A DNA stretch of 28,775 nt from a virus (IMGVR_UViG_3300050821_004464:1-28775), one strand, 5' to 3'. Numbered from the stretch's first letter, positions 1 to 27,212 are shown. Notes: generated by a model from the letters alone, not told the origin. Program-made: numbers and translations.

Positions 1-1575
1 ACGCCGGAAAAAGAGGCCCAGAGCTATTGGGGCATATCGGTGCTGGAGCCGATCTACGAGTCGGTGACCATGCTCGACAACCTTTATTTCAACATCCTCA
101 ACCTGAGCTTCCGTGCAAATTTGTTGGGGATGAAGTTTCCGCAACTCGCGAACATGCTGTCGGGGCTCGGGGCCACGCAGCGCGCGGCTCAAGGCTTCGA
201 GGAGCGCATGTCTTCGCTCAATCATTTGATCAGCTCGCAGTCATTAATTCCGCTGCCAGCCGACGGCTCGATAGAGGCCACGCAGTACAGCTTCAGCGGG
301 CTGGCCGACATCCTCCAACTGTTTCAGTTGAACCTGTCGGGTGGCTCGCAGATACCGGTGGCGCGCCTGTTCGGGCGCACCTACAGCGGGCTCGGGCAGA
401 CCGGCGACGGCGACGAGCGCATCTACGAGGAGAAGATATCGACCGATCAGTCGGCCTATCTTCTGCCCCAACTGGAGAAACTCTATCCGGTGCTTTGCAT
501 GAGCGAGCTGGGAGAGGTGCCGGACGACCTCGACCTGGTCTGCCCCTCGATCAGGGTGCTGGACGAAAAAGAGAAGTCAGAACTGGCCAAGTCCGTGGCC
601 GACACGGTTACTGTCTACATGAACGGCGGCATAATGTCTCCGCGCAAGGTAGCCCAAGAGGTCAAGAGATCAAGCGATCTCACTGGCATTGGAGCTACGT
701 TAGATGACGAGTTCATCGAGAAGCTCTCCGACGACGTAAGCTCCGAGGGCGAACTTGGCGAGGGTCTCTTCGGCGGAGAAGGCGCGGGCCTGAACGAAGC
801 ATCCAGCCCTGCCAAGGCCATCAAGGAAGAGAACAAGGACGGCAAGCAAGGCGGCGGTGAGAAGCCTGGTGACGAAGACGCTAAGTCCTCCTCTGCCAAA
901 GCCCAAATGCTGAAGAAAGCCGGAGACGCGGTATCCACGGCTCCGGCCATGGACGCACTGCCAGCCGAACTCAAGGCAGGCGAGCGCATCTTGGTGAACA
1001 ACAAACTTCTCACCGTGGCGAAGATCACCACCGGCACCGAGGACCTGTTCGGGGAACCCACCGTACAGGTCATGTTCACCACTGGTGAGATCATGGCGTA
1101 TCGTCCCACCCAGGTGCTGAAGCCACAAAAGGCCAAGGCAACGGATGAGGACGGCCCGTCCACTCTCCACAAGGGCATGCAGCTCTATCACGGCCTGCCG
1201 GTACGCATTGAGACCAAACAAGGCCAACCGCGCATCGGCAAAGGCTGGAAGGTCAACATGCCCGCCGACTACGGTTTCATAGAAGGCATCAATGGTGCAG
1301 ACAACGATAGTTTGGATTGTTATGTGGCTAGTACGCCTGAGTCGAACAACGTCTACATAGTGGACCAGTACGACCTCGATGGTAAGCACTTCGACGAGCA
1401 CAAATGCATGCTCGGCTACCACACGCTGGAGAGCGCGAAGGAGGACTACATGCTGGGCCATCACCTCTCCCACAAGACGTTCGCAGCCATTACGCCATTC
1501 ACCATGCCCATGTTTAGGAAGTGGATGGCCACGGCGGATCTGACCAAGCCGTGCTCTAAAAAGGTGGCCGTTTGA
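1..1575 (+). CDS. Portal protein (DUF1073 type) fused to C-terminal InPase domain, 5' truncated
   Basis: The frame is open from base 1, so the N-terminus lies outside the window; the GTG at 40 is not a convincing start. Residues about 1-220 of the fragment match the C-terminal half of DUF1073 portal proteins, including the typical stretch IPVARLFGRTYSGLGQTGDG and the following ISTDQ helix. Portals form the dodecameric DNA channel at the head vertex. A charged linker follows, then a small beta domain around residues 320-370, then an inorganic-pyrophosphatase-like InPase domain (about 391-515) with YGFIEGINGADNDSLDCYV, VYIVDQYD and FDEHKCMLGYH. InPase domains are known from phage polyvalent proteins; activity here is inferred from motifs only. 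The stop overlaps the next TTG start. The portal call rests on family motifs and on position upstream of the protease and capsid genes. Confidence 0.85.
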   Translation, partial: TPEKEAQSYWGISVLEPIYESVTMLDNLYFNILNLSFRANLLGMKFPQLANMLSGLGATQRAAQGFEERMSSLNHLISSQSLIPLPADGSIEATQYSFSGLADILQLFQLNLSGGSQIPVARLFGRTYSGLGQTGDGDERIYEEKISTDQSAYLLPQLEKLYPVLCMSELGEVPDDLDLVCPSIRVLDEKEKSELAKSVADTVTVYMNGGIMSPRKVAQEVKRSSDLTGIGATLDDEFIEKLSDDVSSEGELGEGLFGGEGAGLNEASSPAKAIKEENKDGKQGGGEKPGDEDAKSSSAKAQMLKKAGDAVSTAPAMDALPAELKAGERILVNNKLLTVAKITTGTEDLFGEPTVQVMFTTGEIMAYRPTQVLKPQKAKATDEDGPSTLHKGMQLYHGLPVRIETKQGQPRIGKGWKVNMPADYGFIEGINGADNDSLDCYVASTPESNNVYIVDQYDLDGKHFDEHKCMLGYHTLESAKEDYMLGHHLSHKTFAAITPFTMPMFRKWMATADLTKPCSKKVAV

Positions 1576-1799
1576 CAGGGCTCAGTTTGAAGCAAGTGGC
1601 GGTGTTCGCGCAGGAGCAACTCTCCGGTACGGGCACCGCTTTCACTTTGTCCGCCACCCCAGTGTTCCTCATGGCGGTGTATCTGAACGGGCTGTTTCTG
1701 ACCGTCAACGTGGACTACGTCGCAGCCGGAGCACTCATAACCTTGGTGAGCAAGACCGTCGTCGCCACCGATGTTCTGACGGCTTGTTACATCCACTAG
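1572..1799 (+). CDS. Small beta-rich protein, free-standing copy of a dispersed virion module
   Basis: This 75-residue product starts at a TTG overlapping the portal stop (TTGA), suggesting translational coupling. Almost the whole protein is one module: FTLSATPVFLMAVYLNGLFL, then VDY, then a hydrophobic strand. The same pattern (YTLS..P....v..NG.f..p.iDYTl) lies inside the connector protein at 11316, the neck protein at 13420 and the fibre-associated protein at 26823. It has no signal peptide or catalytic motif. A role as a small virion decoration or adaptor is an inference from its relatives and position; no function is established. Confidence 0.7.
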   Translation: MTGLSLKQVAVFAQEQLSGTGTAFTLSATPVFLMAVYLNGLFLTVNVDYVAAGALITLVSKTVVATDVLTACYIH

Positions 1800-1810
1800 G
1801 AGGTGCGTAG

Positions 1811-2161
1811 TTGAGCGAAAACAAATACGAAGACTACGCCATCATCATGAGCCCGGCGGAGCTTACGCGCTACGTCATAAAGCACAACCAGTTGCTGGTC
1901 ACAGGAAACGGACAGAAGAGCGTCATGGTCAGGTTGGACAGTGTAGAAGAGTACCGAGAGCAGCGCTTGGAGCCGGATTTGTACGACGCAGAAACTGGCA
2001 TCGTCCCGCAGATCCGCAACTTCTTCAACCTCCAAGCGGAGCGCGACAAGCAGTCGACCAACAAGCTTAACCGTGCGTTGGTCATCGTCACTGGAGTGGC
2101 CATAGGCACTCCCATCTTTTGGGACTGGTTCAGGCACGCGGTGCTGGGGTGGGCGAAGTGA
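1811..2161 (+). CDS. Small single-pass membrane protein, function unknown
   Basis: A 116-residue product starting at TTG 1811, behind a strong AGGAGG site at the end of the previous gene. The N-terminal about 85 residues are polar and charged. One hydrophobic segment near the C-terminus (ALVIVTGVAIGTPIFWDWF) looks like a single membrane span or an amphipathic anchor. No family is recognised. A holin is possible, but a single C-terminal span after a soluble domain is atypical for one. The next gene starts inside its stop codon (GTGA), so the two are probably co-translated. Confidence 0.65.
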   Translation: MSENKYEDYAIIMSPAELTRYVIKHNQLLVTGNGQKSVMVRLDSVEEYREQRLEPDLYDAETGIVPQIRNFFNLQAERDKQSTNKLNRALVIVTGVAIGTPIFWDWFRHAVLGWAK

Positions 2162-2349
2162 CAGCCTGGTTGATCGAGAACTACGTCATCGACAGGCCGT
2201 ACTGGCTCACTGTCTACCTGGGCGAGATGACCTACTCCGCCGACGTGAACGACGCCATACGATTCTCCAGCCCAGGTGACGCCGTCAAGATGCTTGACCA
2301 TAAGTTCTTCAACGCACCGGTCACGGTGGTGGAGCACGTCTTTCTATGA
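2158..2349 (+). CDS. Small hypothetical protein
   Basis: A 63-residue product. GTG 2158 is chosen as the start because it overlaps the previous stop as GTGA; an upstream ATG at 2119 in the same frame would lie deep inside the previous gene. The sequence is soluble and mixed alpha/beta (starts VTAWLIENYVIDRPYWLTVY). No family is recognised. Its stop overlaps the next start as ATGA, so it sits in a chain of coupled small genes. Confidence 0.6.
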   Translation: MTAWLIENYVIDRPYWLTVYLGEMTYSADVNDAIRFSSPGDAVKMLDHKFFNAPVTVVEHVFL

Positions 2350-3074
2350 CACCAGTGACGCAGTCCCGCGTGGGCTTGGACGGCACATGTTTTCGCGCGT
2401 GCCTAGCTTCCATTTTGAACTTGAAAGAATCTCAGGTGCCCGACTTCGGCGAAGAGGGCTGGGTGGAAGAGGCAAACGACTTCCTCTCCAAACACGGCTT
2501 GAAGTACAGGCGAGTGCCTGTGACCTCCACCAAGCCGGACGGCTACTCCACTATTGAGGGCATCAGTCCGCGCGGCAGACTGCATGCATGTGTCGCCAAA
2601 GATGGTGAACTTGTCCACGACCCCCATCCGCAAGACGGCACCGGTCGTGGGTTGGTGGAGCCTCGGTACTACGGGCTGCTGGAGCCGATACTTGGGCGCA
2701 CTAAGTACGAACGCGAGCGGCAGCCGGATGTGGCTCCGGTGGGCGACGCGGGGCCTACGTACAAAAAGATCTGCTCTAGTTGCGGCGTGCCATTGCAGAC
2801 CAAGATGAAAGTCTTGACCTGCCAGGCATGCCGCTATGAGCAGATGCAGAAGTCAGCTGGCAGGCCGTTAGACGCGGCGTACGCCGAGCGCATACGTGCG
2901 GCGTTGCGAAGAGCGGTCAAGGCCGCTGCGAGCGACAGAGCCGACGACAGAGCCGACATGGCGCGGCTGCGCAGGAACACCGAGCGTCAGGGCGGCCCGT
3001 TCTTCATGCAAGTCACCGAACCGAATGGCCGTGAGCACACCATACCGGCAAGCAAGTTACGCAAGGAGAACTAA
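2346..3074 (+). CDS. C39-like papain-fold cysteine peptidase with C-terminal zinc ribbon
   Basis: A 242-residue protein with two parts. Residues about 8-115 look like a phage C39-like peptidase domain: GTCFRACLASIL places the likely nucleophile at Cys15, SPRGRLHACV the His at 80, and HDPHP an acidic residue at Asp92. Residues 143-162 form a four-cysteine ribbon (C143-x2-C146, C159-x2-C162). The C-terminus is strongly basic with alternating Arg/Asp (DRADDRADMARLRR). Such domains often sit near head genes and may trim virion or host proteins; the substrate is unknown. Whether it is active, or only a structural relative, cannot be told from sequence. Confidence 0.7.
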   Translation: MTPVTQSRVGLDGTCFRACLASILNLKESQVPDFGEEGWVEEANDFLSKHGLKYRRVPVTSTKPDGYSTIEGISPRGRLHACVAKDGELVHDPHPQDGTGRGLVEPRYYGLLEPILGRTKYERERQPDVAPVGDAGPTYKKICSSCGVPLQTKMKVLTCQACRYEQMQKSAGRPLDAAYAERIRAALRRAVKAAASDRADDRADMARLRRNTERQGGPFFMQVTEPNGREHTIPASKLRKEN

Positions 3075-3380
3075 ATGGCTTCAGGATCGTTCGCAGTATC
3101 GGGTGCGCAGGGCACGAGCTTCGGCTTCGCCTCCACCAATGTGGCACTACCGGGTTCCGGTGCCGTGCTGCGGATCGCCAACCTGGGTCCGTGCCACATC
3201 ACCGTCGCGCTCGGTACGGGCTCAACCACTGTGAACCAGTCGAATGGCCTGACCATCCTGGCTGGGCAGACGGAGTGGATCACGGTGTCCGGGGCGACCA
3301 ACATCGCTGGCGTGGCGGCTGGTGGGCCGGGCAACAGCTCCACTGTGAATCTCAGCACTGGCGCGCTGACCGCAGCGTAG
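3075..3380 (+). CDS. Small beta-rich putative virion protein
   Basis: A 101-residue product starting one base after the previous stop, with AAGGAG ahead of the ATG. It is rich in Gly, Ser, Thr and Ala, with alternating hydrophobic strands (AVLRIANLGPCHITVALG and TILAGQTEWITVSG) as in small beta-sandwich decoration proteins. There is no signal peptide and no catalytic motif. Its place between portal and capsid genes suggests a head-associated role; this is an inference, and the protein is not assigned to a named family. Confidence 0.65.
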   Translation: MASGSFAVSGAQGTSFGFASTNVALPGSGAVLRIANLGPCHITVALGTGSTTVNQSNGLTILAGQTEWITVSGATNIAGVAAGGPGNSSTVNLSTGALTAA

Positions 3381-3426
3381 CCGCACCTCCGCACCATCAC
3401 AAAGCACTCTTCGCAAGGAGTCCACC

Positions 3427-4305
3427 GTGAAACTTTTACCCGCAGTACTGTCGTTAGCGTTGTCCGTCGCAATGCCCATGTCGGGCCAGCAGAGCACTGT
3501 CCCTGACTCCAGTTGGGTTGCTGCTGCCCCGTACGTCGCCACGCACTTGTCGGGGCACCCCAGCGGTTACGGCGATGCCAAGCCGTTGCCCCGCCCGGCG
3601 CAGTCCGAAATCGCATTCGTCAAGGACACGCTGTACAAGGCCACCGTGCTGCTGTACTCGCAGGACGAGAACGGCACGCTGAAGATGCGCTGCACGGCTA
3701 CCGCCATCGACAAGACCGGGGACGGCTACCTGTTTGCCACCGCCGCCCACTGCGGCTGCGTGGACGACGAGGACGCCCGTGCGGTTTCGCCCGCCAAGAC
3801 TTTCTTCTTCATCACCCCGGACGCCGTCGGTGAGAAGGTGTTCCTGGAGGCCAGGCCCTTGGTTTGCGGCTACCGACATGCCGGAGACGACGTGTTCCTG
3901 CTGACGGTCGATACCAAGCTGCCGTTCGTGACCATTGACCTCGGTGAAGATCCGAAACTCATGGACTCGGTGGTGAACGTGGCCAGCCCGCTGGGCATCG
4001 GCAAACAAGTGTTCTTGGGCACCGTCTCGGCCGCAGACCTCGACCGCCCCGTCATCGATGGCGACATTAACTGGACCCACGCCTCGCTGCTGCAGCTGTT
4101 CGGCACGGATGGCGGCTCCAGCGGCAGCGCGGTGGTGTGCCTGGATCAGCAAAAGATTTGCGGATTTGTGGTCGGCTCCATCGATAAGACAAGCATCATC
4201 GCCATGCCGGTTAGCCGTTTGATCAAGTTGCGTGAGCAGTTCGCTTCTGGCGCATATAAGCATTGGGTAGCCGACCCTGACGCGGTCAACACTAAGAAGA
4301 AATAG
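3427..4305 (+). CDS. Exported trypsin-like (chymotrypsin-fold) serine protease
   Basis: A 292-residue protein from GTG 3427, with AAGGAG just upstream. Residues 1 to about 20 form a Sec-type signal peptide (MKLLPAVLSLALSVAMPMSG). The catalytic triad is visible: His108 in TAAHC, Asp154 or 155 in GDDVFLL, and Ser232 in GGSSGSAVV. Paired cysteines (89 and 109; 238 and 245) fit disulfides in an oxidising compartment, as in S1-family proteases. The DegP-like mid region has no PDZ domain after it. It is likely active in the periplasm or outside the cell. In a phage head cluster this is odd, since capsid maturation proteases are cytoplasmic; a role in envelope modification, host-range or defence is speculative. 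Confidence 0.85.
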   Translation: MKLLPAVLSLALSVAMPMSGQQSTVPDSSWVAAAPYVATHLSGHPSGYGDAKPLPRPAQSEIAFVKDTLYKATVLLYSQDENGTLKMRCTATAIDKTGDGYLFATAAHCGCVDDEDARAVSPAKTFFFITPDAVGEKVFLEARPLVCGYRHAGDDVFLLTVDTKLPFVTIDLGEDPKLMDSVVNVASPLGIGKQVFLGTVSAADLDRPVIDGDINWTHASLLQLFGTDGGSSGSAVVCLDQQKICGFVVGSIDKTSIIAMPVSRLIKLREQFASGAYKHWVADPDAVNTKKK

Positions 4306-4338
4306 CGCACCTCGCGCACAGACACAGAAAGGTCCTAG

Positions 4339-6462: not shown

Positions 6463-8171
6463 ACGAACTAGAAGAGCCGGAAGTCATACCGGCGACCCGC
6501 AGCCCGCACGGCTACCTTGCCACACGGGTGAGCGACAACATTTCGGTGCGCGAGGAGGACGGCACGCTGATCGTGGTGGGCTGCCCCATCGCCCGCACCG
6601 GCTGGCAGAAGTACGCCGTCAAGGACCTTCCCCAGGAGCGCGCCAAGGAGTTGGGCGTCGATATCAGCAACCCCAACGCGTCCATCGATCTGTACCGCCC
6701 AGCGAGCGAGGTGTTTCACCCAGACTTTTTGGCGTCGTTGAACGGCATCCCCATCACGGACGGACATCCCCCGAATGGCGAGTTCGTCAACAAAGACAAC
6801 TTCAATAAGTACGCCAAAGGCCACATTCAAAACGTGCGCAAGGGCACGGAACCTTTGGAAGACGGCGAGTGGCCTGTCATAGCCGACCTTATCATCAGTG
6901 GCGAGCCGCTTGTGGGCAAAGTGCACCATAAGATGGCCCGAGAAATCAGCCTCGGCTACGACTTTGGCATTGACCGTGATGGCGACAAGATTATCCAGTC
7001 GCACATGTACGGCAACCATAACGCCGTAGTGCCGGACGGACGGGCGGGGGATTTCGTGGCCATTACGGACGCGGAGCCCGGGCCTTCGGAGGCGCCCGTC
7101 GCCGAACAAGTTTTGACCGAGTCAGCCACCCAGGCCGAGCCTCGGTCGAATTCAAAAGAACCTCCTGCGCCGGTGGATGGCATCGAAGCCGCGTACCAAC
7201 CAATAGTGATCAATTTCAAATCCACCAAGGAGAAGCAATCCGTGAACACACGCGAAAAATTGCTGCGCCTTCTCATGGGAAAGCACATCATCGAAATGGC
7301 GAGAGCCACGGACGCTGATCCAGAGAAGATCGCAGAGGCCGCCGAGGCCATGCACGAAGGCAAGGATGACGCCGAACCACCCAAGAACACGCAGGCCAAC
7401 GAGTTCAAGTCCGAGGACAAAAAGGGCAGGGACGGAGAGGTACCCCCAGCTTTGAAAGAGAATGAATTCAAGGCCGACGACAAGCGCAAGGCGGCCCATG
7501 ACGCGCTCGATCGCGCGATGGACGCCAAAGAGCACGCCAAGGACAAGAAGGCGAAGGACAAGAAGCACGCCAAGGACGCCGACATCGAGGAGCTGAAGTC
7601 GCTGCTCGACGAGCTCCTTTCCGAAGAGGAGAAGGAGCCGGAGCACGAAGCAGCCGATGTCGACCCCTCTGAGCTTGAGGCGGTGCTTGGCGGCGGTGCC
7701 GAGGACTGCCCCGACTGCGGTACTGCGCACGACGACGAGACCGAGTGCCCCGGCGAGACGGAAGTCGAGAGCGGCGAGGAAGTCATGGACGCGGAGAACG
7801 GCGAAAGCCCGGACCCCGACTCCGATGACGACCAGGAAGACGTCGAGTCCGGCACTGACAAGCGCCATGCACGAGATCGTGCGCGTGCGGCTGACGGCGC
7901 GACCGCGGTACTTCGCATGCTGCGTCCTGTGGTGGCCCGCAGCAACGACAAGGCCATGCACAGTGCGTTCAACCGTGCCCTTGACTCTGTCAAGAAGTCC
8001 AGCCGTCCTTCCACAGGCAGCTACGGTGCGTTCGCGGCTTCGGCACGCGCCCGCGACAAGGCGCCTCGCAACCCCAACCCTGATCGTGCTCGCGCTGGTG
8101 ACTCTGGCAAGGCTGATCCAATGACCAAGCTGCAGGAGATGTACAACTCCGCGCACAAGGGAGGTAAATAA
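6459..8171 (+). CDS. DUF2213 prohead protease with C-terminal scaffold region
   Basis: A 570-residue protein. Residues about 10-210 match DUF2213, a prohead-protease family: PITDGHPP (His103), REISLGYDFG (Ser164) and YGNHNAVVPDGRAG (His187) carry the likely active-site residues. Residues about 260-570 are highly charged, low-complexity and helical, as in scaffold cores, with repeated AKD motifs (HAKDKKAKDKKHAKD). A small CPDCG site lies near residue 420. The protein would template procapsid assembly, then cut itself and other head proteins. Start ATG 6459 overlaps the upstream stop, and the stop overlaps the cement gene ATG by one base. An internal start at 7242 probably yields the scaffold part alone. 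Confidence 0.85.
   Translation: MNELEEPEVIPATRSPHGYLATRVSDNISVREEDGTLIVVGCPIARTGWQKYAVKDLPQERAKELGVDISNPNASIDLYRPASEVFHPDFLASLNGIPITDGHPPNGEFVNKDNFNKYAKGHIQNVRKGTEPLEDGEWPVIADLIISGEPLVGKVHHKMAREISLGYDFGIDRDGDKIIQSHMYGNHNAVVPDGRAGDFVAITDAEPGPSEAPVAEQVLTESATQAEPRSNSKEPPAPVDGIEAAYQPIVINFKSTKEKQSVNTREKLLRLLMGKHIIEMARATDADPEKIAEAAEAMHEGKDDAEPPKNTQANEFKSEDKKGRDGEVPPALKENEFKADDKRKAAHDALDRAMDAKEHAKDKKAKDKKHAKDADIEELKSLLDELLSEEEKEPEHEAADVDPSELEAVLGGGAEDCPDCGTAHDDETECPGETEVESGEEVMDAENGESPDPDSDDDQEDVESGTDKRHARDRARAADGATAVLRMLRPVVARSNDKAMHSAFNRALDSVKKSSRPSTGSYGAFAASARARDKAPRNPNPDRARAGDSGKADPMTKLQEMYNSAHKGGK
7242..8171 (+). CDS. Probable nested scaffold protein (internal start within the DUF2213 gene)
   Basis: An in-frame GTG at 7242 is preceded by AAGGAG nine bases upstream, at the junction between protease domain and charged region. 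Translation from here gives about 309 residues (starts MNTREKLLRLLMGKH) made of scaffold-like helical, charged sequence with AKD repeats. Lambda C/Nu3 is the known precedent: a scaffold nested in the protease gene. The site could also be chance, since AAGGAG encodes Lys-Glu here. Confidence 0.55.
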   Translation: MNTREKLLRLLMGKHIIEMARATDADPEKIAEAAEAMHEGKDDAEPPKNTQANEFKSEDKKGRDGEVPPALKENEFKADDKRKAAHDALDRAMDAKEHAKDKKAKDKKHAKDADIEELKSLLDELLSEEEKEPEHEAADVDPSELEAVLGGGAEDCPDCGTAHDDETECPGETEVESGEEVMDAENGESPDPDSDDDQEDVESGTDKRHARDRARAADGATAVLRMLRPVVARSNDKAMHSAFNRALDSVKKSSRPSTGSYGAFAASARARDKAPRNPNPDRARAGDSGKADPMTKLQEMYNSAHKGGK

Positions 8172-8983
8172 TGCCACAGTACAGCTTCGGCCAGGTCATT
8201 AATGTAACCGGGCCGGTTAATGGTTTCCCTGGCACGGTAAGCCGCCAGGGCGAGCGCCTCATCACGGCCCGCGAGTTCACGCCGTTCACGGCGACAAACA
8301 ACCTCAACTTCGGCGACCCTGCCGTGCTCATCCCCAACGCCACTGGCGGTGTGTATGACTCGGTGGCCGACTTCGTCGCTCACTCGACTGCCAACATCGG
8401 TTTGGTTGCGCAGTACTTCGCTGGCTTCGCGGTCCGTGAAGTCAAGACGCAGCTCACCTACCCCGCTGGCCAGCAGCCCGGTATCTTGCAGGTCGGTTAC
8501 TACACCAACTTGCAGATATCGGAAGTTCTGGAGCGCGGCAACGGCACCGTCCTGCTTTCGGTCGGTGCGCCCAACTCGCAGGACCAGGTGTACACCCGCG
8601 TCGTGGCGAACACCGCCGTCCCCGCAGGCTTCATCGGCGACTGGGAGACCAACCCCGCTGCCACCGACCTGTTCGCGATCACTGGCATCACCGCCGCAGC
8701 CGCTGGTGCAACCGCGCTGACCGGCACGTTCACCAACGTGCTTGTTGGCCAGCCCATCACAGGCCCCGGCATCGCACCTGGCACCTACGTCGTGAGCGGT
8801 ACCGGCACGGCTGGTGCGTACACCGCCATCGTAATCAGCAAGCCGCTTACTGCGGCCATCACCGCCACATCGTCGCTGACGTTCAGCAACCTCGTGGCCC
8901 TGCCCAATGTTGTTGCCCGTACCGGCAATGTCGATACGAACAGCGTCTTCGAACTCACCATCAAGATCCGCAACGCGGCTTAA
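8171..8983 (+). CDS. Head cement/decoration protein with inserted beta module
   Basis: A 270-residue protein directly before the capsid gene. Its N-terminus (FGQVINVTGPVNGFPGTVSR, then NFGDPAVLI and FAGFAVREVKT) and C-terminus (NSVFELTIKIRNAA) match phage structural cement proteins that clamp capsomers. Between them, residues about 174-240 hold an extra Ala/Gly/Thr-rich module with GQPITGPGIAPGTYVV, which also appears in the connector, sheath and J proteins of this phage. GGAGG lies just ahead of the ATG. The cement role is by family and position; the module's role, perhaps surface display, is unknown. Confidence 0.8.
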   Translation: MPQYSFGQVINVTGPVNGFPGTVSRQGERLITAREFTPFTATNNLNFGDPAVLIPNATGGVYDSVADFVAHSTANIGLVAQYFAGFAVREVKTQLTYPAGQQPGILQVGYYTNLQISEVLERGNGTVLLSVGAPNSQDQVYTRVVANTAVPAGFIGDWETNPAATDLFAITGITAAAAGATALTGTFTNVLVGQPITGPGIAPGTYVVSGTGTAGAYTAIVISKPLTAAITATSSLTFSNLVALPNVVARTGNVDTNSVFELTIKIRNAA

Positions 8984-8995
8984 GGAGCAGAACCA

Positions 8996-10042: not shown

Positions 10043-10049
10043 TTGATAA

Positions 10050-10072: not shown

Positions 10073-10089
10073 GACGCGTCTAACGAAGT

Positions 10090-11297: not shown

Positions 11298-11315
11298 TAA
11301 CGAAAGCGGGATGTG

Positions 11316-12323
11316 ATGGGCGGCTTTGGCGGCGGAGTACTGGGCACGCAGAACTGGCCCAATTTCAACAGTTGGCTCCAGAATACCTGGGGGTCTGGCG
11401 CATCTTACGAGACGGTGTGCAGCCAGTTTTACGGCGCATCCAACTTTGTCTTTGGGCAAAACCCTCCGTACTATCTCGACAACTTCAAGTCGATCTATCC
11501 GAAGTTCTTCGGACTGCCAACACCGTTGAGCGGCTGTGGTACTACACAGGGTGATGCGACGCTTACAGTACTGTCGATCGACGGACTCGACTACGGCCAG
11601 TTCGTGCAGGCCCCTGGAGTGCTGCCCCAAGGCTCCGTCATCGTGGGCCTTGGCGACGGCACCGTGACGCTCAACAATGCGGCGACCGTCACCAACGCGA
11701 ACGCCACCATTCAGACCTACCAAGCCTCCCCCATTCCCAACGGTGTGATTTTGATGTATCTCCGCCTTGCGTACGAGTCGCTGGTGTGGAAGCGCTGGCA
11801 GGGCGAGTGGTGGGTGGCGATGGGACTCTTCATCGCGCACTACTTAACTTTGTACGCCAAGTCAGATGCCAGCGAAGTTTACTCGCAGCTTCAGACCGCC
11901 ATTCATGGTGAGGCTCCCACAGGGGCCGTGCCGGGCACTGTGTACACGCTGAGCGCACAGCCACCCAACGGCTCGTTGCAGACACTCACCAAGAACGGCG
12001 TGTTTCAGACACCGGGCATCGACTACACACTGAACGGCAACACAGTCACCATGACGAACGCCACGGTGTTGAACGACGCGCTCTACGCCACATGGCCTAT
12101 CTCGTACCAGACCATCGCACCAGCGGCCATCACAGGTTCGCAAATCGCCGCAGCTGGATTGGCTGGCGGCATTCAAACGTCGAAGTCCGTGGGTGACGTG
12201 TCGGTGGGATACGCCACTCTTGAGGTGCTGTCTGGCTTCGGTGCTTGGCAGCTTACCTCCTACGGCCAGCAACTTTCTACGATGGCAATGGTCGTAGGAA
12301 TGGGGCCCGCCCTAGTATGGTAA
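11316..12323 (+). CDS. Head-tail connector (DUF4054 type) carrying two inserted beta modules
   Basis: A 335-residue protein. The DUF4054 core is split: FKSIYPKFFG near residue 55, the helical WKRWQGEWWVAMGLFIAHYLTLYA around 160-185, and the C-terminal SVGDVSVGYATLE with TSYGQQLSTM. DUF4054 proteins are small head-tail connectors, usually about 130-150 residues, so this one is more than doubled in length. The extra length comes from two modules: about 79-135 (QGSVIVGLGDGTVTLNNAAT) and about 203-265 (TVYTLSAQPPNGS, NGVFQTPGIDYTLNG). ATG 11316 is used; a GTG lies one codon upstream. The ribosome binding site is weak. Confidence 0.8.
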   Translation: MGGFGGGVLGTQNWPNFNSWLQNTWGSGASYETVCSQFYGASNFVFGQNPPYYLDNFKSIYPKFFGLPTPLSGCGTTQGDATLTVLSIDGLDYGQFVQAPGVLPQGSVIVGLGDGTVTLNNAATVTNANATIQTYQASPIPNGVILMYLRLAYESLVWKRWQGEWWVAMGLFIAHYLTLYAKSDASEVYSQLQTAIHGEAPTGAVPGTVYTLSAQPPNGSLQTLTKNGVFQTPGIDYTLNGNTVTMTNATVLNDALYATWPISYQTIAPAAITGSQIAAAGLAGGIQTSKSVGDVSVGYATLEVLSGFGAWQLTSYGQQLSTMAMVVGMGPALVW

Positions 12324-13120: not shown

Positions 13121-13423
13121 ATGCGGAAAAGGCTGGAGTGTGCCTTTGTGGGCGATGCTTACGACGACAAGGCTACGCGTGTCTACACCATCACAGGCAC
13201 GTCTGAATTTTTAAACCGTCTCGACACTCATTTGGCTTTCATACAGTGGCTCGGTACGGTGGGGCATTCCGCCACTGCTGGCATAGGCGTAGACGGTGAC
13301 GGCTCTGATCGTCTCCGGGTTGTTTCGCCCAAGTTGCCAAGCATAAAAGAAAGTCAAGTGAAGACGAAGGGCACATACCCAGAGCAGTTTGAATATGTGA
13401 CTGGCAAAGCTGGCACCTTGTGA
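13121..13423 (+). CDS. Small hypothetical neck-region protein
   Basis: A 100-residue product from ATG 13121, behind GGAGG at the end of the previous gene. A longer frame from 13010 is rejected because it overlaps the upstream gene. The sequence is mixed alpha/beta (FLNRLDTHLAFIQWLGTVGH, then a Gly/Asp turn and basic C-terminus). No family is recognised. It ends in GTGA overlap with the next gene, so the two are coupled. Confidence 0.65.
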   Translation: MRKRLECAFVGDAYDDKATRVYTITGTSEFLNRLDTHLAFIQWLGTVGHSATAGIGVDGDGSDRLRVVSPKLPSIKESQVKTKGTYPEQFEYVTGKAGTL

Positions 13424-13998
13424 TCACTGTAACCGAAGTCGTAGAAGATCCTACTTTCATCCCTCCACAGCCCTTCACCATACTGCGCAGCGTTGGACAG
13501 TTCGTAGTAGGCGGCTTCAACCCCAACAACACGATATCCATCCCAGTGTTTGGCCCAGTACAGCAAGCTTCGCTGAAGCAACTCGAAATGCTCCTAGAAG
13601 CCGACCGTGTCGGCTACGTGCGAATGTTCTGGTGCCGTCAACCTCTGTACTTGACGCGTGGGTACGCACCAGTGCCTGGTGTGCAGGTCGGTAGCCTCAC
13701 CGGCTCCGGCCTTGTTTACACGCTGAGCAGTACGCCGCCAGACGGCACGGCGATGGTGTACGTCAATGGCCTGTTCATGACGCCGGGCATTGACTACACG
13801 TTGGACGGCAACACTTTGACGTTCGTGGTGGCTCCGTCCACCACGCCCGTGGTGACGTGGCAGATCACAGTTAACATGGCTACGAACAACAGCGACATCA
13901 TCCAGTTTGAGAATTACCAATATCGTCTTATGGACTCCTACTACGATCCTGGCGCAGGTTATCATCGGGCACTTGGTGTCAGAATGCAGGCGTCATGA
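13420..13998 (+). CDS. Neck (stopper-like) protein with inserted beta module
   Basis: A 192-residue protein from GTG 13420 in a GTGA overlap. The outer parts (PFTILRSVGQFVVGG, FGPVQQASLKQLEMLLEADR, and the C-terminal QYRLMDSYYDPGAGYHRAL) resemble conserved phage neck or head-closure proteins. Residues about 90-152 are a beta module: LVYTLSSTPPDGTAMVYVNG and TPGIDYTLDGNTLTF. This copy is close to the connector copy even at DNA level (CCGGGCAT and GACTACAC shared). The neck role is inferred from gene order. Confidence 0.65.
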   Translation: MITVTEVVEDPTFIPPQPFTILRSVGQFVVGGFNPNNTISIPVFGPVQQASLKQLEMLLEADRVGYVRMFWCRQPLYLTRGYAPVPGVQVGSLTGSGLVYTLSSTPPDGTAMVYVNGLFMTPGIDYTLDGNTLTFVVAPSTTPVVTWQITVNMATNNSDIIQFENYQYRLMDSYYDPGAGYHRALGVRMQAS

Positions 13999-14675: not shown

Positions 14676-16310
14676 ATGGCGACAACGCCACCGCTTTCGC
14701 TAACCAATATCGTCGATATCACGGTGCAAGTGTCGCCCACCGCGCCAGCCGTCAACTCATTCAATGTGGGGCTGTTCGTCGGCCCTAGCACAGTTATTCC
14801 ATCGTACGGTGCTAACTCGCGTGTGCAGCTCTTCAGCGTTCCCACCTCTACGCCGATGCTGTCCGCAGGGTTCACCACCACCGACCCCGAATACATCGCG
14901 GGCCAAATTTACTCCTCGCAGTCTCCTGCAGCTGCGCAGTTTGCCGTGGGGCGCCAGGACCTCACCGCTATCCAGACCATCACGCTCGATGGACGCACCG
15001 TCACTGATGGCGCTATCACCAACGGCACTGATGTTCTGACCTCCGCCACTGCCGCGTTCGTCAGCGGAGACGTAGGGTCTGCGGTCATCGTCGAGGGCGC
15101 GGGCGTCGCAGGTGCTGCGCTAAGCACGACCATTGCGTCCGTGACCAACGCCACTACAGCCGTACTCGTGGCCGACGCCAGCACCACTGTAACTGGTGCA
15201 CAGACCAGCATCGGTGCAGTTGGTACTGCTTACGCGGTCAACGACACGTTCAACATCACGCAGGGCGGCGGTACTTTCGGTATCGGTCAGGTGCTGACGG
15301 TCGGCATCTCCGGCCAGGTGCTCACGGCCCAGTTGGTGCAGGGCAATCAGGGCACCGGCTACACGGTCGCCAATGGGCTCTCCACCGTGGCCGTGGCACC
15401 TTCGACGGGCACCGGTCTCAAGGTCAACATCACCGCCATCGGCGAGACGCTGGTGCAGGCCGCCGAGGCGTGCCGCATCGCCAGCGGCCTGTGGTACGGC
15501 CTCACGGTCAATGCACCCGTGGATGCCGATAACCTCGCCATCAGCGAGTGGGCTGATCCGTTGTGGGCCACCACGCGCTACTACCCTTATTCCGGCGACG
15601 CGACAATCGCGGCGGGCACGGCGAACAATCTGGCCTTGCAGCTTCAGACGTTGGACCTGCGGGTGCTCGGACAGTACGCCACCACGCAGAACGGCCTGTA
15701 CCCCAACAACATCTACGCAGCGGTCGCCGCTATGGGCGTCGAGATGGGGCTGAACACCGGGCTGGCCAACAGCTTCTTCACCATCGCGCACAAGCCTCTC
15801 GCGGGCATCGCGCCAGAGCCGTTGACGCAGACCCAGTACACGAACATCAAGAACGCTGGGTTCAACGTGTACGGCGACTTACAGAACTTCGAGCTGGAAG
15901 AGCCGGGCTTCATGTCCAACGGCACGCCGTCGTTCCTGTGGCTGTTCCTGGCCGTGTATGTGGCCCAGTTGCAGAGCGAGATCATGGCGGTGCTTCAAGA
16001 CAACCCCGCCGTTCCGCAGACCAACGCTGGTGAGCAGTTGTTCCTCCACGCCGCCAACCAGGCCGGGGTGTACATGGCGAACATCGGCTTCCTGGCTCCG
16101 AACGTGTGGGGCGGCGCGTCGGTCAATCTGACCGGACTCTCCATCACCAACGGGCAGGCGCTGTCCAACGGCTACCTCAACATGGCCCAGCCGTACTCGC
16201 AGCAGTTGACCGCTGACCGCGACGCTGGCAAGGCGATGCCGGTCTATTCGTTCATCACCACGGCTGGCGCGGTTCAGTCAATCGCGATCGGCGTGTACGT
16301 TCAACTGTAA
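14676..16310 (+). CDS. Tail sheath protein (DUF3383 type) with inserted modules
   Basis: A 544-residue protein. The N-terminus (SLTNIVDITVQVSPTAPAV, NVGLFVGPS) and the C-terminal half (NNIYAAVAAMGVEMGL, GEQLFLHAANQAGVYMANIG) match DUF3383 sheath proteins, which contract to drive the tube through the envelope. Residues about 108-180 hold a module of the type NGTDVLTSATAAFVSGDVGS, and about 181-256 a second one (GGGTFGIGQVLTVGISGQVL, QGTGYTVANG). Both look like surface insertions, between N-terminal strands and core. AAGGAG lies 11 bases ahead of ATG. Confidence 0.85.
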   Translation: MATTPPLSLTNIVDITVQVSPTAPAVNSFNVGLFVGPSTVIPSYGANSRVQLFSVPTSTPMLSAGFTTTDPEYIAGQIYSSQSPAAAQFAVGRQDLTAIQTITLDGRTVTDGAITNGTDVLTSATAAFVSGDVGSAVIVEGAGVAGAALSTTIASVTNATTAVLVADASTTVTGAQTSIGAVGTAYAVNDTFNITQGGGTFGIGQVLTVGISGQVLTAQLVQGNQGTGYTVANGLSTVAVAPSTGTGLKVNITAIGETLVQAAEACRIASGLWYGLTVNAPVDADNLAISEWADPLWATTRYYPYSGDATIAAGTANNLALQLQTLDLRVLGQYATTQNGLYPNNIYAAVAAMGVEMGLNTGLANSFFTIAHKPLAGIAPEPLTQTQYTNIKNAGFNVYGDLQNFELEEPGFMSNGTPSFLWLFLAVYVAQLQSEIMAVLQDNPAVPQTNAGEQLFLHAANQAGVYMANIGFLAPNVWGGASVNLTGLSITNGQALSNGYLNMAQPYSQQLTADRDAGKAMPVYSFITTAGAVQSIAIGVYVQL

Positions 16311-17562: not shown

Positions 17563-17573
17563 GGAGGTGCACA

Positions 17574-19298: not shown

Positions 19299-19301
19299 CA
19301 G

Positions 19302-20141: not shown

Positions 20142-20198
20142 GAGGTGCCTACCTCGCCACATGGCATCGAAGTTTCACAGCGCTGAAGAAAGGTGCCC

Positions 20199-20537
20199 AT
20201 GTCCGCCCAGATTATCCCGCTCACACAGGCACCCAATCAGACCTTCAGCGTGCAGTTGACTGTGGACGGAAGTCCGCTAACGCTCAATTTCGTGCTGAGC
20301 TACTCTGCTATGTCGGGTTGGTGGCAGCTTCAGGTGGCGAATGCGCAGAACACTGTGCTCATCGCGTCCGTGCCGCTCATCACCGGGTACTACCCCGCCG
20401 CGAACATGCTGGCTCAGTACGGCTATCTTGAGATAGGGAGCGCCTATTTGCTCAATACTGGCAACAGCCCGGACGACTATCCAGGCGCCAATGACCTGAC
20501 GGCGTTCTCTTTGCTGTGGTCTGACACTGCCACTTAA
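20199..20537 (+). CDS. Baseplate plug-type protein (Pam3 gp18-like)
   Basis: A 112-residue protein. ATG 20199 is preferred over the GTG two codons upstream because the AAAGG site fits it. It contains QTFSVQLTVDGSPLTLNFVL, WWQLQVANAQNTVLIASVPL and a final LLWSDT strand, the pattern of small baseplate plug proteins described in cyanophage Pam3. It would sit in the tube/hub channel. The call rests on the strand pattern and its place between Dit-like and hub genes. Confidence 0.65.
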   Translation: MSAQIIPLTQAPNQTFSVQLTVDGSPLTLNFVLSYSAMSGWWQLQVANAQNTVLIASVPLITGYYPAANMLAQYGYLEIGSAYLLNTGNSPDDYPGANDLTAFSLLWSDTAT

Positions 20538-20558
20538 AGCGCGGGCAAGGAGAACCCT

Positions 20559-21671: not shown

Positions 21672-21683
21672 GCAAGGAGCCCG

Positions 21684-22481: not shown

Positions 22482-22483
22482 CA

Positions 22484-22879
22484 GTGTCCACCACGCCCAC
22501 CATCCAATACCTCCAGCTCGACTCCACCTATGACCCCATCTTCGACCCTACGGCCAACCTAGACGACACCTACGCAGTGGCACAGGCCATACGGACGCGC
22601 TTGAAGTTGTTTCTGGGCGAGTGGTGGGAGAACCTCAGCCTCGGTCTGCCAATGTTCCAGTCGATACTTGGCCAACTCGGCTCGCCGCAAGGTCTGTCGG
22701 CCATGACATTGGCGGTGACGCAGAATATTGAGGGTGCGCCTTACGTCACGTCTGTGACCGGCGTGACTGTGAAGTTTGTAGATGGTGCTCTGTCCATCAC
22801 GGCCACGGCGCAGACTCAGTTTGGCCCTGTCAGCGTCAACACTTCGCCCGCCTTGAACGCGGCCAGTTTGTCTTCGTAG
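22484..22879 (+). CDS. Baseplate wedge protein (gp25-like)
   Basis: A 131-residue protein from GTG 22484, two bases after the spike stop. It has the gp25/W signature AVAQAIRTRLKLFLGEWWEN followed by LGLPMFQSILGQ, and C-terminal strands (VTGVTVKFVDGALSITATAQ). Gp25-like proteins nucleate sheath assembly at the baseplate. The EWW variant and J gene immediately downstream match this family in many myophages. Confidence 0.8.
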   Translation: MSTTPTIQYLQLDSTYDPIFDPTANLDDTYAVAQAIRTRLKLFLGEWWENLSLGLPMFQSILGQLGSPQGLSAMTLAVTQNIEGAPYVTSVTGVTVKFVDGALSITATAQTQFGPVSVNTSPALNAASLSS

Positions 22880-22952
22880 TGGTTCGTGTGGCTATGACGC
22901 TCAGAATCGCCGCTTTGTAAACCGCAGGCCCAGCAAGGAGATCCACCGCGCG

Positions 22953-24371
22953 ATGAGCACGCCAGCATACTTTCCGCCTTCCGTTGGCCCAGCCGGGCTC
23001 GTCGTCCCATCCTACGCAGCCATACTGAACGACAACCTGCAGGCGTTCTTGAACATCTATGGCGCCAATCAATACGTGGCACCGGACAGCGCCATCTACC
23101 AGCTTCTGTCGATCATCTCGCTCAAGCAGTCCGACGTAAACCTGGCACTACAACTCGTATACAACCAGTCGTCACCGCAGACGGCAGTTGGTGCAGGTCT
23201 TGACCGTGAAGTGAAGATGAACGGCCTGGCACGTGCGCCGTTCTCTTTTTCCACCGCACTAGTGACGGTAACTGGCGTATCCGCCACCACGATCACCAAC
23301 GGCTTTGCACAGGATCAGGGCGGCAACCTATGGGCGCTCCCCACTACGGTGGTCATACCCAACAGCGGCTTCATCACCGTCACTGCCGTTTGCACAACAC
23401 CGGGCGCTGTGTCCGCCGAGCCTGGCGCGATCAACATCGTCAACACGCCTGTACCGGGTTGGAACACAGTGACCAACTCCGCCGCCGCCACTGCGGGCGA
23501 ACCTGTAGAGACCGACTCTGCGTTGCGCGCCCGTCAGTCCATATCGGTGGCTCTGCCGTCACTGACCCCCGTGGCAGCCACCATCGCGGCCATTCTCGCG
23601 ACGCCTGGCGTGGTGCGCGTGGCACCCGGCTACCCCACGCCGGGTGGACCTGGATCGTCCATCGAGAACCCCACAGGTGCGGTAGACAGTTGGGGCAACC
23701 CAGCACACTCGATCTCGATGGTGGTGCAAACTAGCAACACCGTCACTGTGGCACAGGCCATCTACAACAAGAAGACGCCTGGCTGCTTCACCAACGGCAC
23801 CACTACGGTTCCGGTGGTCGACGCCACCACCGGCGTGACCGAGAACATCAGCTTCTTCCTTCCCAGCGAGGTGCCCGCGTTCTTGCTTGTGACCGTGCTG
23901 GGCTACGGTTCCGTGCCTAACAGCGCGACACTGACCGCCGTGCAGACGGCACTGGTCAACTACCTGAACGCACTCGCCATCGGCGAGACGATCTCCATTG
24001 GCGCGCTGTACTACGAAGCCATGTCCGTCAACGCTCAACTGACCGCACCAAACTTCGGCGTGCAATCGGTGCGCGTTGGCACTCAAACAGCGTCCACCAC
24101 TGCGACGTTCTCCAACGGCGGTACGTCTATGGTGGTGGCCTCCGCAGCGGGCATCGTCGCGGGGCAACTTGTCGTAGGCGCGGGCATCGCGCCAGGCACA
24201 CTGACGGGCACACCATCGGGCACCACTGTACCACTATCCATAGCCACTACGACAGCGGGTGCAGGGACTGCAGTGGAGTTATCGACACTCAGTTCATCTG
24301 ACGTGCCCATGCCTAATTTCTATTATGCGGCCCAGGGCGTCACGGCCAACGTGTCTGTTGTGGTGGGCTGA
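22953..24371 (+). CDS. Baseplate J-like protein with C-terminal inserted module
   Basis: A 472-residue protein from ATG 22953 with AAGGAG upstream. Features of gpJ-type wedge proteins are present: PDSAIYQLLSIISLKQSDVN, the GAGLDREVKMNGLAR segment, AGEPVETDSALRARQSISVA and ALVNYLNALAIGETISIGAL. Near the C-terminus, residues about 382-448 hold a module (GTSMVVASAAGIVAGQLVVG, then GIAPGTL) like that in the cement protein. The stop falls inside the first copy of a short tandem repeat. Confidence 0.8.
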   Translation: MSTPAYFPPSVGPAGLVVPSYAAILNDNLQAFLNIYGANQYVAPDSAIYQLLSIISLKQSDVNLALQLVYNQSSPQTAVGAGLDREVKMNGLARAPFSFSTALVTVTGVSATTITNGFAQDQGGNLWALPTTVVIPNSGFITVTAVCTTPGAVSAEPGAINIVNTPVPGWNTVTNSAAATAGEPVETDSALRARQSISVALPSLTPVAATIAAILATPGVVRVAPGYPTPGGPGSSIENPTGAVDSWGNPAHSISMVVQTSNTVTVAQAIYNKKTPGCFTNGTTTVPVVDATTGVTENISFFLPSEVPAFLLVTVLGYGSVPNSATLTAVQTALVNYLNALAIGETISIGALYYEAMSVNAQLTAPNFGVQSVRVGTQTASTTATFSNGGTSMVVASAAGIVAGQLVVGAGIAPGTLTGTPSGTTVPLSIATTTAGAGTAVELSTLSSSDVPMPNFYYAAQGVTANVSVVVG

Positions 24372-24443
24372 CCATGGAGCGAGGACGACGCTGGCTAACA
24401 GTGTGGTGGGGCTGACCATGGAGCAAGGACGACGCGGGCTAGC
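24359..24443 (+). repeat. Imperfect tandem repeat (about 42 bp, two copies) over the J stop codon
   Basis: Copy 1 is 24359-24399 and copy 2 is 24402-24443; they differ by one extra G and about three or four substitutions. Copy 1 contains the J stop (GGCTGA). Each copy has an ATGGAG start-like triplet, giving very short frames (13 and 23 codons) without clear ribosome binding sites. This looks like a local duplication of a gene end. The rest of the 104-base spacer shows nothing else. Confidence 0.7.
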
Positions 24444-24475
24444 CAAGATAGTGCCACGCCCAGAACGGAGCATCT

Positions 24476-25102
24476 GTGAATCCTAGCTACGGCGTGCAGG
24501 GCTACGGCACTGGCGGCTACGGCAACGAGCCGATCGAGTCACTGCCTATCGGCTACTACCAGGCGCTGCTTACTTCCGAGTACGCGCTCTCGCCCAAGCT
24601 CAACCAACTTCTGTACGTGCTGCTGAAGAAATTCGACGACGTGTCGCAGGTGATGGTGCAGCTCGATACCGCACTCGACCTCGACATAGCAGTGGGCGCT
24701 CAGTTGGACATGCTGGGTTCCATTGTGGGGGCGAACCGTACCGTGGGGTTCCAGCCCAGCGGCGGTGTCAGCCCCGTGCTCGACGACGCCACGTATCGCA
24801 TCTACATCAAAGCTAAGATTGCCCAGAACCAGTGGGATGGCACGCTCGTCGGGCTGTATCCGATATGGGCCCAGCTGTTTCCCGCAGGCAAGATCGTAAT
24901 CTTAGACGGGCAAAATATGTCCTGCGACATAACGTTGACCGGCACGTTTACCTCGATCCTCCAAGACCTGATCGTCAACGGCTACATCGTCCCCAGGCCA
25001 GAAGGCGTACTTTACACCTTTATCTTCGGCGCACTGCCGTTCTTCGGATTCGGAAGCTCGCCAGGGTTCATCGCAGGGTTCGGAGAAGGCCACTGGGCCT
25101 AG
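24476..25102 (+). CDS. Baseplate protein (DUF2612 type, I-like)
   Basis: A 208-residue protein from GTG 24476, with GGAG six bases ahead. It carries the DUF2612 pattern: LLYVLLKKFDDVSQVMVQLD, VGAQLDMLGSIVGANRTVGF, then DATYRIYIKAKIAQNQWDGT. The C-terminus is Gly/Phe-rich (FFGFGSSPGFIAGFGEGHWA), probably a flexible or strand-swapped end that contacts fibres. In myophages this gene sits between J and the fibre gene, as here. Confidence 0.8.
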   Translation: MNPSYGVQGYGTGGYGNEPIESLPIGYYQALLTSEYALSPKLNQLLYVLLKKFDDVSQVMVQLDTALDLDIAVGAQLDMLGSIVGANRTVGFQPSGGVSPVLDDATYRIYIKAKIAQNQWDGTLVGLYPIWAQLFPAGKIVILDGQNMSCDITLTGTFTSILQDLIVNGYIVPRPEGVLYTFIFGALPFFGFGSSPGFIAGFGEGHWA

Positions 25103-25123
25103 TCATCGTGCAAGGAGAACTAA

Positions 25124-26404
25124 ATGGCAAGTACTAACCTCCAACAGTGGAATCCGACTGCGGTTAATCAAGAGACAGACGCCCAATACGCCGCTGATTC
25201 CACGAGAGCAGGCGGGGCCGTAGATCCCGCCATCTTCTTGTCCGTACTGGGCAACAAAGCCTTCTACCAGTGGTCCACGTACCTGACGGCGCTGTTCCAA
25301 GCATTCGCCAACAAGGGGTTCACCACCTCGGACTCCAGCCTCAACACGCTGACCGCACAGTGCGCCAACTTCTTGACCACGGCGGACACACTGCCGCCCA
25401 TCCAGTCGGTTGCATACTCGTCCACGCCCACTTTCAACGCGGGTGCGGCGAGCGGCTTTCAGATGACGCTGACCGGCAACGTCACGGGCATCACCATCAC
25501 CGGCGTAGCGCCTGGCGAACTCATTGCCATCGAGTTTATTCAGGATGGCACTGGCGGGCGCACTGTGAACGGGTGGCCAACGTTGGTCACGAACACGGCG
25601 GCCATACCGCAGCCGGATCTGTCACCCGGTATCGGAACGCTCTACCTGTTCCGCGTGGAACTGAACGGCAATGTTCATCCAGCGGCTCCCGCAATCAGCG
25701 GCAACGGCACGTACGTAACCAACCTTACAGCAGCTGACACCGTCACTGGGGGCGCCTTGGTCGTGACCGGCAACGGTCGAGTAGTAGGCACACTGACCGT
25801 CAATGGCGTAGCCACCTTCACCAACAACGTCCAAGTGAACGCAGCCCTCGGAGTCACAGGCAACGTCACGGCAGGCGGCGTCATCGCCACCAACACGCAG
25901 ACGAACAATAACGCCAATGTCAACGGCACTACAACCACAGGTGCGTTAAGCGTGACTGGCAGTGCCAACGTCGCCAGCAACTTACTGGTTGGCAGCAGAC
26001 TGACCGCAGGGTCTTTGACGCTATCCTCCCCAGGTTCTAGCGGTCAGGTGCTCACCAACGTTGGTGGCGTGTTTGTGCCGGAGGCCGTTCCAGCACAAAC
26101 AGCGACGCGCAACGATGTCACTGGATCGCGCAGCTTTGGCACGACGTACACCAACAGTAGCGGTGGAGTCATGTATGTCACTGGGTATGGTAACACGCGA
26201 GGCTCGGCTGTTGGAAGCGTTGCCTGCTTTGTCAATGGTGACGCTGATTTTGCCAACACAGCCACGGCCACCATCGACGGCGGCGCTTGTGGTTTCAGTT
26301 TCGTGGTGCCATCCGGGGGGACTTACCAAATACAAGCGAACACACTTGCCAGTGACACCGGCGTCACCGGCGTCGGCAAGTGGATTGAGACAGTTGTCTC
26401 CTAA
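25124..26404 (+). CDS. Tail fibre protein
   Basis: A 426-residue protein from ATG 25124, after an AAGGAG site. The N-terminal about 90 residues (starts ASTNLQQWNPTAVNQETDAQ) resemble fibre-attachment domains. The middle (about 200-310) is a run of short strands with Gly/Asn/Thr/Val repeats (TVNGVATFTNNVQVNAALGV; ALSVTGSANVASNLLVGSRL), as in fibre shafts. The C-terminal about 110 residues form a compact beta domain (FVNGDADFANTATATIDGGA) that may be the receptor-binding tip. No chaperone gene is obvious next to it. Confidence 0.75.
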   Translation: MASTNLQQWNPTAVNQETDAQYAADSTRAGGAVDPAIFLSVLGNKAFYQWSTYLTALFQAFANKGFTTSDSSLNTLTAQCANFLTTADTLPPIQSVAYSSTPTFNAGAASGFQMTLTGNVTGITITGVAPGELIAIEFIQDGTGGRTVNGWPTLVTNTAAIPQPDLSPGIGTLYLFRVELNGNVHPAAPAISGNGTYVTNLTAADTVTGGALVVTGNGRVVGTLTVNGVATFTNNVQVNAALGVTGNVTAGGVIATNTQTNNNANVNGTTTTGALSVTGSANVASNLLVGSRLTAGSLTLSSPGSSGQVLTNVGGVFVPEAVPAQTATRNDVTGSRSFGTTYTNSSGGVMYVTGYGNTRGSAVGSVACFVNGDADFANTATATIDGGACGFSFVVPSGGTYQIQANTLASDTGVTGVGKWIETVVS

Positions 26405-26423
26405 CAATAGAAAGAGAGTTTAG

Positions 26424-26777
26424 ATGAGTTTTCCGTACGCACCGCAAGTCGTCGCCAAGTTGGCTTTGACCGGGCAAACTACCAGTCTGCCTCTTACGAC
26501 TGTGTATACGCCCACAGTCGATGGCGACTATCAGATTGCCGCTTACATCACACAAAGCAATATTGCGTCAGGCTACGCTAGTGCTGAGCTGTCATGGACA
26601 GACGAGTGCGGGCTTGTCGGTCATTGGTCTCTAGGTTCTGGAGTCGACGGTTCCGGTACTCAGACAGCGAATCCGCGTGTTCCAGCTGGCAGCAGCATTC
26701 AAGTAAAGACCACTTACAATTCTGGCAACGGCACGCCTCCATCTTACGATCTCTTTGTAACGGTAACTCAACTATAG
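26424..26777 (+). CDS. Small beta-rich fibre-associated protein
   Basis: A 117-residue product. It closely echoes the C-terminal domain of the preceding fibre in style: TPTVDGDYQIAAYITQSN, SAELSWTDECG, and PAGSSIQVKTTYNSGNGTPP, ending YDLFVTVTQL, a jelly-roll-like strand set. It has no signal peptide. A second tip or adhesin subunit is a reasonable inference from position. GAAAGAGAG about 10 bases ahead of the ATG serves as ribosome binding site. Confidence 0.65.
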   Translation: MSFPYAPQVVAKLALTGQTTSLPLTTVYTPTVDGDYQIAAYITQSNIASGYASAELSWTDECGLVGHWSLGSGVDGSGTQTANPRVPAGSSIQVKTTYNSGNGTPPSYDLFVTVTQL

Positions 26778-26789
26778 CAAGGAGCCAGC

Positions 26790-26822
26790 ATGGCAATGAT
26801 CAAACTGGGTGGAGCCGCGTAG
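26790..26822 (+). CDS. Ten-codon micro-frame with strong ribosome binding site, in frame with the next gene
   Basis: ATG 26790 has AAGGAG five bases upstream and encodes MAMIKLGGAA followed by TAG. The next gene starts directly after this stop (TAGATG) in the same frame. It could be a leader peptide for coupling, a broken N-terminus of the next gene, or a site of amber read-through. Sequence alone does not decide, and the peptide may not be functional. Confidence 0.4.
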   Translation: MAMIKLGGAA

Positions 26823-27212
26823 ATGGCAAGCGAAACATCCACCCCAAACATCGGCTTGCAAGTTCCGGCGTACAACCAGTCGAACTGGCAAGTGCCGATC
26901 AACTACGACCTCAACTTGTTGGACCTCATGCTGGGCGGAATCATACCGATTCCCGCCCTGGCCAACTTCGTCATCACGAACATCGGCGCGCAGATAGCGG
27001 CGGTGGCGGTCTCAGAGACGCCCAGCGGCGTGGTGCCTGGCACCGTCTACACCCTGTCCCAGACCCCCGCGTTCGTCATAGCCTTCTACTGGAACGGCAT
27101 CTTCCAGCGCCCTGCGCTGGACTACACGCTCTCAGGCGCCGTCATCACCATGACGAACAACTCCACCAACACCAGCGACAACGTGTACGTCGTCTACCTG
27201 GCCGCCAGCTAA
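26823..27212 (+). CDS. Fibre-associated adaptor-like protein with beta module
   Basis: A 129-residue product. The N-terminus (TPNIGLQVPAYNQSNWQVPI, then NYDLNLLDLMLGG) is a pattern seen at the start of phage tail-fibre and adaptor proteins. Residues about 69-129 are the dispersed beta module: GTVYTLSQTPAFVIAFYWNG, then PALDYTLSGAVITM. It probably links or decorates fibres; that role is inferred. GGTGGAG lies about eight bases ahead of ATG, inside the micro-frame. Confidence 0.65.
   Translation: MASETSTPNIGLQVPAYNQSNWQVPINYDLNLLDLMLGGIIPIPALANFVITNIGAQIAAVAVSETPSGVVPGTVYTLSQTPAFVIAFYWNGIFQRPALDYTLSGAVITMTNNSTNTSDNVYVVYLAAS

Follow-up and report, generated by a model that had tools for sequence, protein, structure and literature searches.

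A tail-fibre-type beta module within the head-tail connector and neck protein of an uncultured contractile-tailed phage

A small beta barrel interrupts the head completion protein of phage DT57C (PMC10713586). This internal domain, DII (residues 44-111), makes contact with the portal (PMC10713586). A beta domain inside a gp6-like connector is a feature that the T5-like protein has in common with the connector described here, which is encoded in what I will call the window, the entire 28,775-base IMG/VR record that was analysed. DII is similar in fold to the module considered in this study (Z about 8; DT57C gp120, 8hqo; T5, 9ilp). At the level of sequence, a comparison of DII with the module gave an hhalign probability of 1.7% (P 0.03) in a plausible register, and in a separate shuffle test 8 of 1312 scored shuffles came up to the score of DII; the kinship is not significant. 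The carriers also differ, in that the T5-like protein is of the PF24163 family and the window connector of DUF4054. In each protein the match to a connector family comes behind the domain, a weak PF05135 match in DT57C (E 0.025) and the C-terminal DUF4054 match here. An assignment of the whole window connector to PF24163 was rejected, since it matches DUF4054 instead.

Modules of tail fibres and depolymerases (PHROG 2710 and 18673; structures 9k4a, 8i4m and 8es4) belong to the same sequence family as the module in the window, with the same NG...DYTL core, and among them, as at locus L025 (below), tandem copies occur in giant proteins. The difference is that here the module is built into a connector and a neck protein and is found as a free gene besides. 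The N-terminus of the T7 tail fibre gp17 (7boz) has a similar fold (Z 7.6 and rmsd 2.2 over 62 residues, compared to the free copy), with a sequence score at background.

Ig-like domains on virions are likewise small beta sandwiches. Published descriptions call them optional, possibly adhesive, and promiscuous in the virion proteins that carry them (PMC9022992, PMC9230969). The carriers named in PMC9022992 (reviewing Fraser et al. 2006) are fibre, baseplate, tail tube, major capsid and Hoc proteins, with neither connectors nor head-closure proteins among them. When 68 module sequences were compared with the Ig-like families Big_1, Big_2, I-set and FN3, no match was listed at E 0.5. In the window, both ring proteins closing the head-tail joint harbour a fibre-type module, conserved there among relatives, which extends the known shuffling of virion building blocks to a region of the particle for which such shuffling has seldom been described.

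Four copies of one module and their carriers

The gene surroundings are those of a normal contractile-tailed phage: portal, major head protein, neck1-type protein, DUF3383 tail sheath, baseplate J and DUF2612 protein. Within them lie four copies of a module of about 55-65 residues. The relevant features are as follows.

1..1575, + strand, portal protein, of which the window has the C-terminal part (PF06381, E 3e-41)
1572..1799, + strand, free module gene, 75 residues, whose TTG start overlaps the portal stop (TTGA)
1620-1796, + strand, core of the free copy, within the open reading frame 1572-1799
11313..12323, + strand, DUF4054 head-tail connector (PF13262, E 1e-12, in two stretches), which has the module and also another module type, B
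11868..12140, + strand, approximate whole extent of the connector insert, from alignment with module-less connectors (L122, L131, L132, L144, L149 and others)
11916-12104, + strand, connector copy, residues 202-264 of 336
13420..13998, + strand, neck (head-closure-like) protein (phrog_939, E 1.5e-7, residues 1-79)
13687-13869, + strand, neck copy, residues 90-150 of 192
26823..27212, + strand, fibre-region protein, a short N-terminal part (NIGLQ.P....NW.....N..LLD) plus the module
27015-27203, + strand, fibre-region copy, residues 65-127 of 129, the C-terminus of the protein

A preliminary description of this DNA had placed copies of a single module family at these four sites, and both its placement and the common origin hold. 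With the connector copy as query, tblastn against the whole record returned 11916-12104, 27021-27194, 13705-13863 and 1629-1784 (E 4e-40 for the match to itself, then 1.5e-13, 4e-13 and 6e-6) and found no fifth copy; these coordinates, and those from pairwise alignment, agree with the earlier ones within a few residues. Local scores of the six pairs of copies lie between 80 and 135, against shuffled maxima of 46-67. In each pair the observed score, 11-20 standard deviations over the mean, was reached by none of 2000 shuffles. Thirteen columns are invariant across the four copies, which are thereby shown to be homologous, and the residues that occupy them (G, T, L, S, P, N, D, Y and F) look structural.

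The names given earlier to the carriers fared differently. That of the connector is well founded: the protein scores 48.6 bits against PF13262, where the gathering score is 23.9, and is thus a member of DUF4054, and the profile of its C-terminus matches solved head-to-tail connectors (7kln gp1, E 1e-4; 8fvh, E217 gp27/28, E 0.003). Its insert is composed of a linker (...HGEAPTGAVPGT...), the module and a trailing linker. The neck protein earns its name by the match to phrog_939, a family of head proteins, which falls on the part outside the module. The label fibre-associated had no basis other than gene position and the module itself, and I keep it only as a statement of location, referring to the fibre-region protein, orthologues of which are found at L022, L023, L155 and L157.

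Other domains occur in the connector and in neighbouring proteins. The C-terminus of the portal protein (residues about 391-509) is an inorganic-pyrophosphatase-like domain (PF18823, E 5.6e-32), and the tail sheath (14676-16310) has an insert at residues 108-193 that matches phrog_32881 (pectin lyase activity, E 7.6e-10). The type-B module (GQ.V.GPGI.PGT) is dispersed as well, over the connector (11313-12323, residues about 74-140), a virion-structural protein (8171-8983, residues about 173-240) and baseplate J (22953-24371, near the C-terminus), with E values of 6e-24, 2e-11 and 4e-7 from an iterated profile. Among relatives it is present in 111 of 123 connector reading frames, near-copies counted, and missing from the connector of L019.

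The free copy, modelled from 68 aligned sequences, is predicted to be a compact seven-strand beta sandwich (pLDDT 89.1, pTM 0.72). Its fold matches include TSP4 (Z 8.9), a portal-tail chain of LME-1 (Z 8.5), the neck chain of DT57C (8hqo_P, Z 8.0) and gp48/49 of Shigella phage B2 (Z 8.0), scores that fall mostly in the range 7-9 and are middling by the structure-search tool's own scale. The model of the full connector (mean pLDDT 51.5) is usable only in its two modules, but the module copy within it is confident, and its matches (9d84, TSP4, LME-1, T5 9ilp and DT57C 8hqo) overlap those of the free copy, in line with the single fold expected from the preliminary description. By sequence profile, the nearest entries in the PDB are the K1 capsule depolymerase 9k4a (E 5e-11), the fibre 8i4m (E 4e-4) and HRP29 gp44, 8es4 (E 5e-4), and the PHROG tail-fibre families 2710 and 18673 match 28 and 17, respectively, of 68 module members (best E 4e-9). 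The module is therefore a phage tail-fibre/depolymerase beta module by profile and, for the free copy, by fold.

Module sites in relatives and the history of copying

With a profile made from the four copies 23 viral loci were found, with one of the neck N-terminus 58 and with one of the connector C-terminus 80. In these uncultured relatives the module was recovered at both the connector site (40 of 60 distinct C-terminal hits) and the neck site (35 of 59 distinct hits), some of the remaining hits in each set being cut by contig ends. Complete connectors with an empty site have 163-263 residues (e.g., L144, L149, L131, L132 and L122) and necks with an empty site 119-123 (L054, L060, L066, L071 and L109). 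These homologues fix the boundaries of the inserts to a few residues, and together with the occupied ones they provide natural pairs with and without the domain, by which the function of an accessory domain on phage necks can be tested.

The two sites are shown to be gained or lost independently. In L054, L060 and L071 the connector bears the module and the neck does not, genomes G007 and G008 lack a neck copy beside their connector and fibre copies, and seven genomes (G011-G015, G022 and G025) have zero copies. In cultured phages no match was found to the connector copy (by tblastn) or to the neck protein, nor was any found to the connector family in the host genome contigs searched. A connector of 489 residues (L105:3723-5189) has three copies of the module, two of them nested inside the type-B module. 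The nested copies carry the same upstream linker, pointing to a further duplication. Downstream of the full connector of L071 is a reading frame of 75 residues (L071:3705-3929) that matches the connector C-terminus only and is possibly a partial duplicate.

The connector and neck copies in the window both contain the DNA string CCGGGCAT.GACTACAC, which had been taken as a sign of copying within the genome. The string is indeed shared, but where the two copies have the same residue they use the same codon in 14 of 25 cases, compared to 10.4 (sd 2.3) expected from the codon usage of the genome. Agreement so near expectation makes the string no evidence for recent copying. A tree of 93 copies, built on few columns and with weak inner forks, requires 12 changes of site label, as compared to 42.5 when the labels are shuffled. 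The free copies form one clade (starred; 100/98), and each of the four copies in the window (connector, neck, fibre and free) is nearest to copies at the same site in other genomes. The copies are thus shown to group by site and not by genome and to be inherited by site, and on the strength of the codon test and the tree, recent copying within this genome was rejected.

What does stand is an older event. The connector and neck copies have a common upstream linker (HGExPxG), and the linker pattern H[GSA]E is found in 37 of 41 unique connector copies and 17 of 33 unique neck copies, as opposed to 25 of 3599 random 22-mers from the same proteins. The shared linker indicates that the module was copied earlier within the lineage, in one event or a few. 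Likeness between connector and neck copies is slightly higher within genomes (0.479) than between them (0.446; 3 of 5000 permutations), a difference that shared descent can produce.

The free-standing module gene

The free module gene lies directly behind the portal gene, and its TTG start is preceded by AAAAAGGTGG, a likely ribosome-binding site. A direct pattern scan of viral contigs found no close relative of the gene, and orthologues were recovered only with the family profile. They lie in genomes G001 and G004 (L153:4303-4530, with an ATG start, and L154:4120-4344, with a GTG start) and are 41% and 56% identical to the window copy. The reading frame is kept in all three genomes, and in G004 the free gene is divided from the portal gene by a reading frame of 109 residues. 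I conclude that the free gene is genuine and that part of the clade has conserved it, because its two orthologues have start codons of their own and one is set apart from the portal gene. Small free genes beside the portal can, then, be stand-alone forms of a virion module.

The same facts bear on a different interpretation of this region, that the sequence at 1572 is not a gene but a C-terminal extension of the portal protein reached by -1 frameshifting, which is known to add Ig-like domains to phage proteins (PMC9022992). The free reading frame is in the -1 frame and overlaps the end of the portal gene, and AAAAAG occurs within the overlap. Orthologues that begin at their own ATG or GTG, however, and the separation of the two genes in G004 make a frameshift fusion hardly credible, and it was rejected.

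Of 11 genomes examined around the portal gene, 3 have the free gene, and in the other 8 an HMM search downstream of the located portal did not find it. G002 is one in which it was not found, although the portal is 78% identical to that of the window (best segment) and the other three copies are kept. All four copies occur together also in G001 and G004. It follows from a distribution of 3 in 11 that the free module is no obligatory partner of the others, a candidate role that was rejected, and the gene is dispensable for the other copies.

Possible roles and further occurrences

The best explanation of the whole, to which I would assign a probability of about 0.6, is that the module is an accessory virion domain, for docking or decoration, carried by ring and fibre proteins. 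The clade of uncultured contractile-tailed phages to which the window belongs would have had an ancestor in which the module, together with the short linker ahead of it, was copied into one loop of the connector and one of the neck protein, and the module would also have come to form the C-terminus of the fibre-region protein and a small gene near the portal gene. The domains probably face outwards and add contacts, since the inserts sit at loops of the ring proteins and homologues of these proteins lack them. So placed, they may dock to neighbouring parts of the virion, as DII of DT57C does to the portal, or may weakly bind something in the outside world, docking or buttressing being somewhat more likely than the binding of a ligand. 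The free protein may be a minor virion protein, made by translation coupled to that of the portal.

Binding to the outside world is itself the substance of another explanation, in which the modules decorate the surface and bind glycans or the cell surface weakly and multivalently, with ring and fibre copies sharing the same kind of ligand. The kinship in sequence to fibre and depolymerase modules speaks for it, as do the optional sites among homologues and a weak similarity to CBM_X2 (23 of 68 module members, best E 1e-4); an adhesive role for Ig-like domains has also been put forward as a hypothesis (PMC9230969, PMC9022992). The CBM_X2 scores, however, are 13.3 bits for the window connector and 25.9 for that of L105, under the Pfam gathering score of 28.9, so that membership was rejected, and the invariant residues of the module appear to serve structure. 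I found no literature report of X2 or CBM_X2 domains in phage tails. Glycan binding seems to me rather unlikely, though it deserves consideration. It is improbable that the modules have no selected function and are passengers, neutral or self-propagating, that loops can tolerate. Their independent presence and absence at different sites and the extra copies nested in L105 are what such passengers might produce, but the same sites are filled across diverged relatives, the core is conserved and the frame of the free gene is intact in three genomes.

Two further explanations treat the copies as a set. The four might make up a coordinated system that surrounds the head-tail vertex as a common outer layer and has a single ligand or scaffold, having spread as a unit of linker plus module through the ring proteins of one phage lineage; I consider this quite improbable. 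The preliminary description suggested a common surface tag, which as such is possible, or a binding site for one partner such as the free module. Three attached copies and one free copy in the same genome, the full set in G001 and G004 as well, and the slightly higher likeness within genomes fit a tag that head, neck and fibre have in common and that one partner recognises. Against it, the attached copies persist in the 8 of 11 genomes (G002 among them) where the free gene was not found, and connector copies occur without neck copies. As a fixed arrangement, a single common partner, or the free module as ligand, finds no support in this distribution, and recognition by one partner is very improbable.

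The module also occurs in other proteins. One of 2134 residues (L025:2-6403) has at least 4 copies, or about ten with an iterated profile. Short proteins of other phages contain two or three modules in tandem (L020:3383-4180, L024:3284-4162 and L026:3131-4189), and downstream of the fibre-region gene of G009 is a reading frame of 103 residues with a copy at its C-terminus (L155; 18123-18431).
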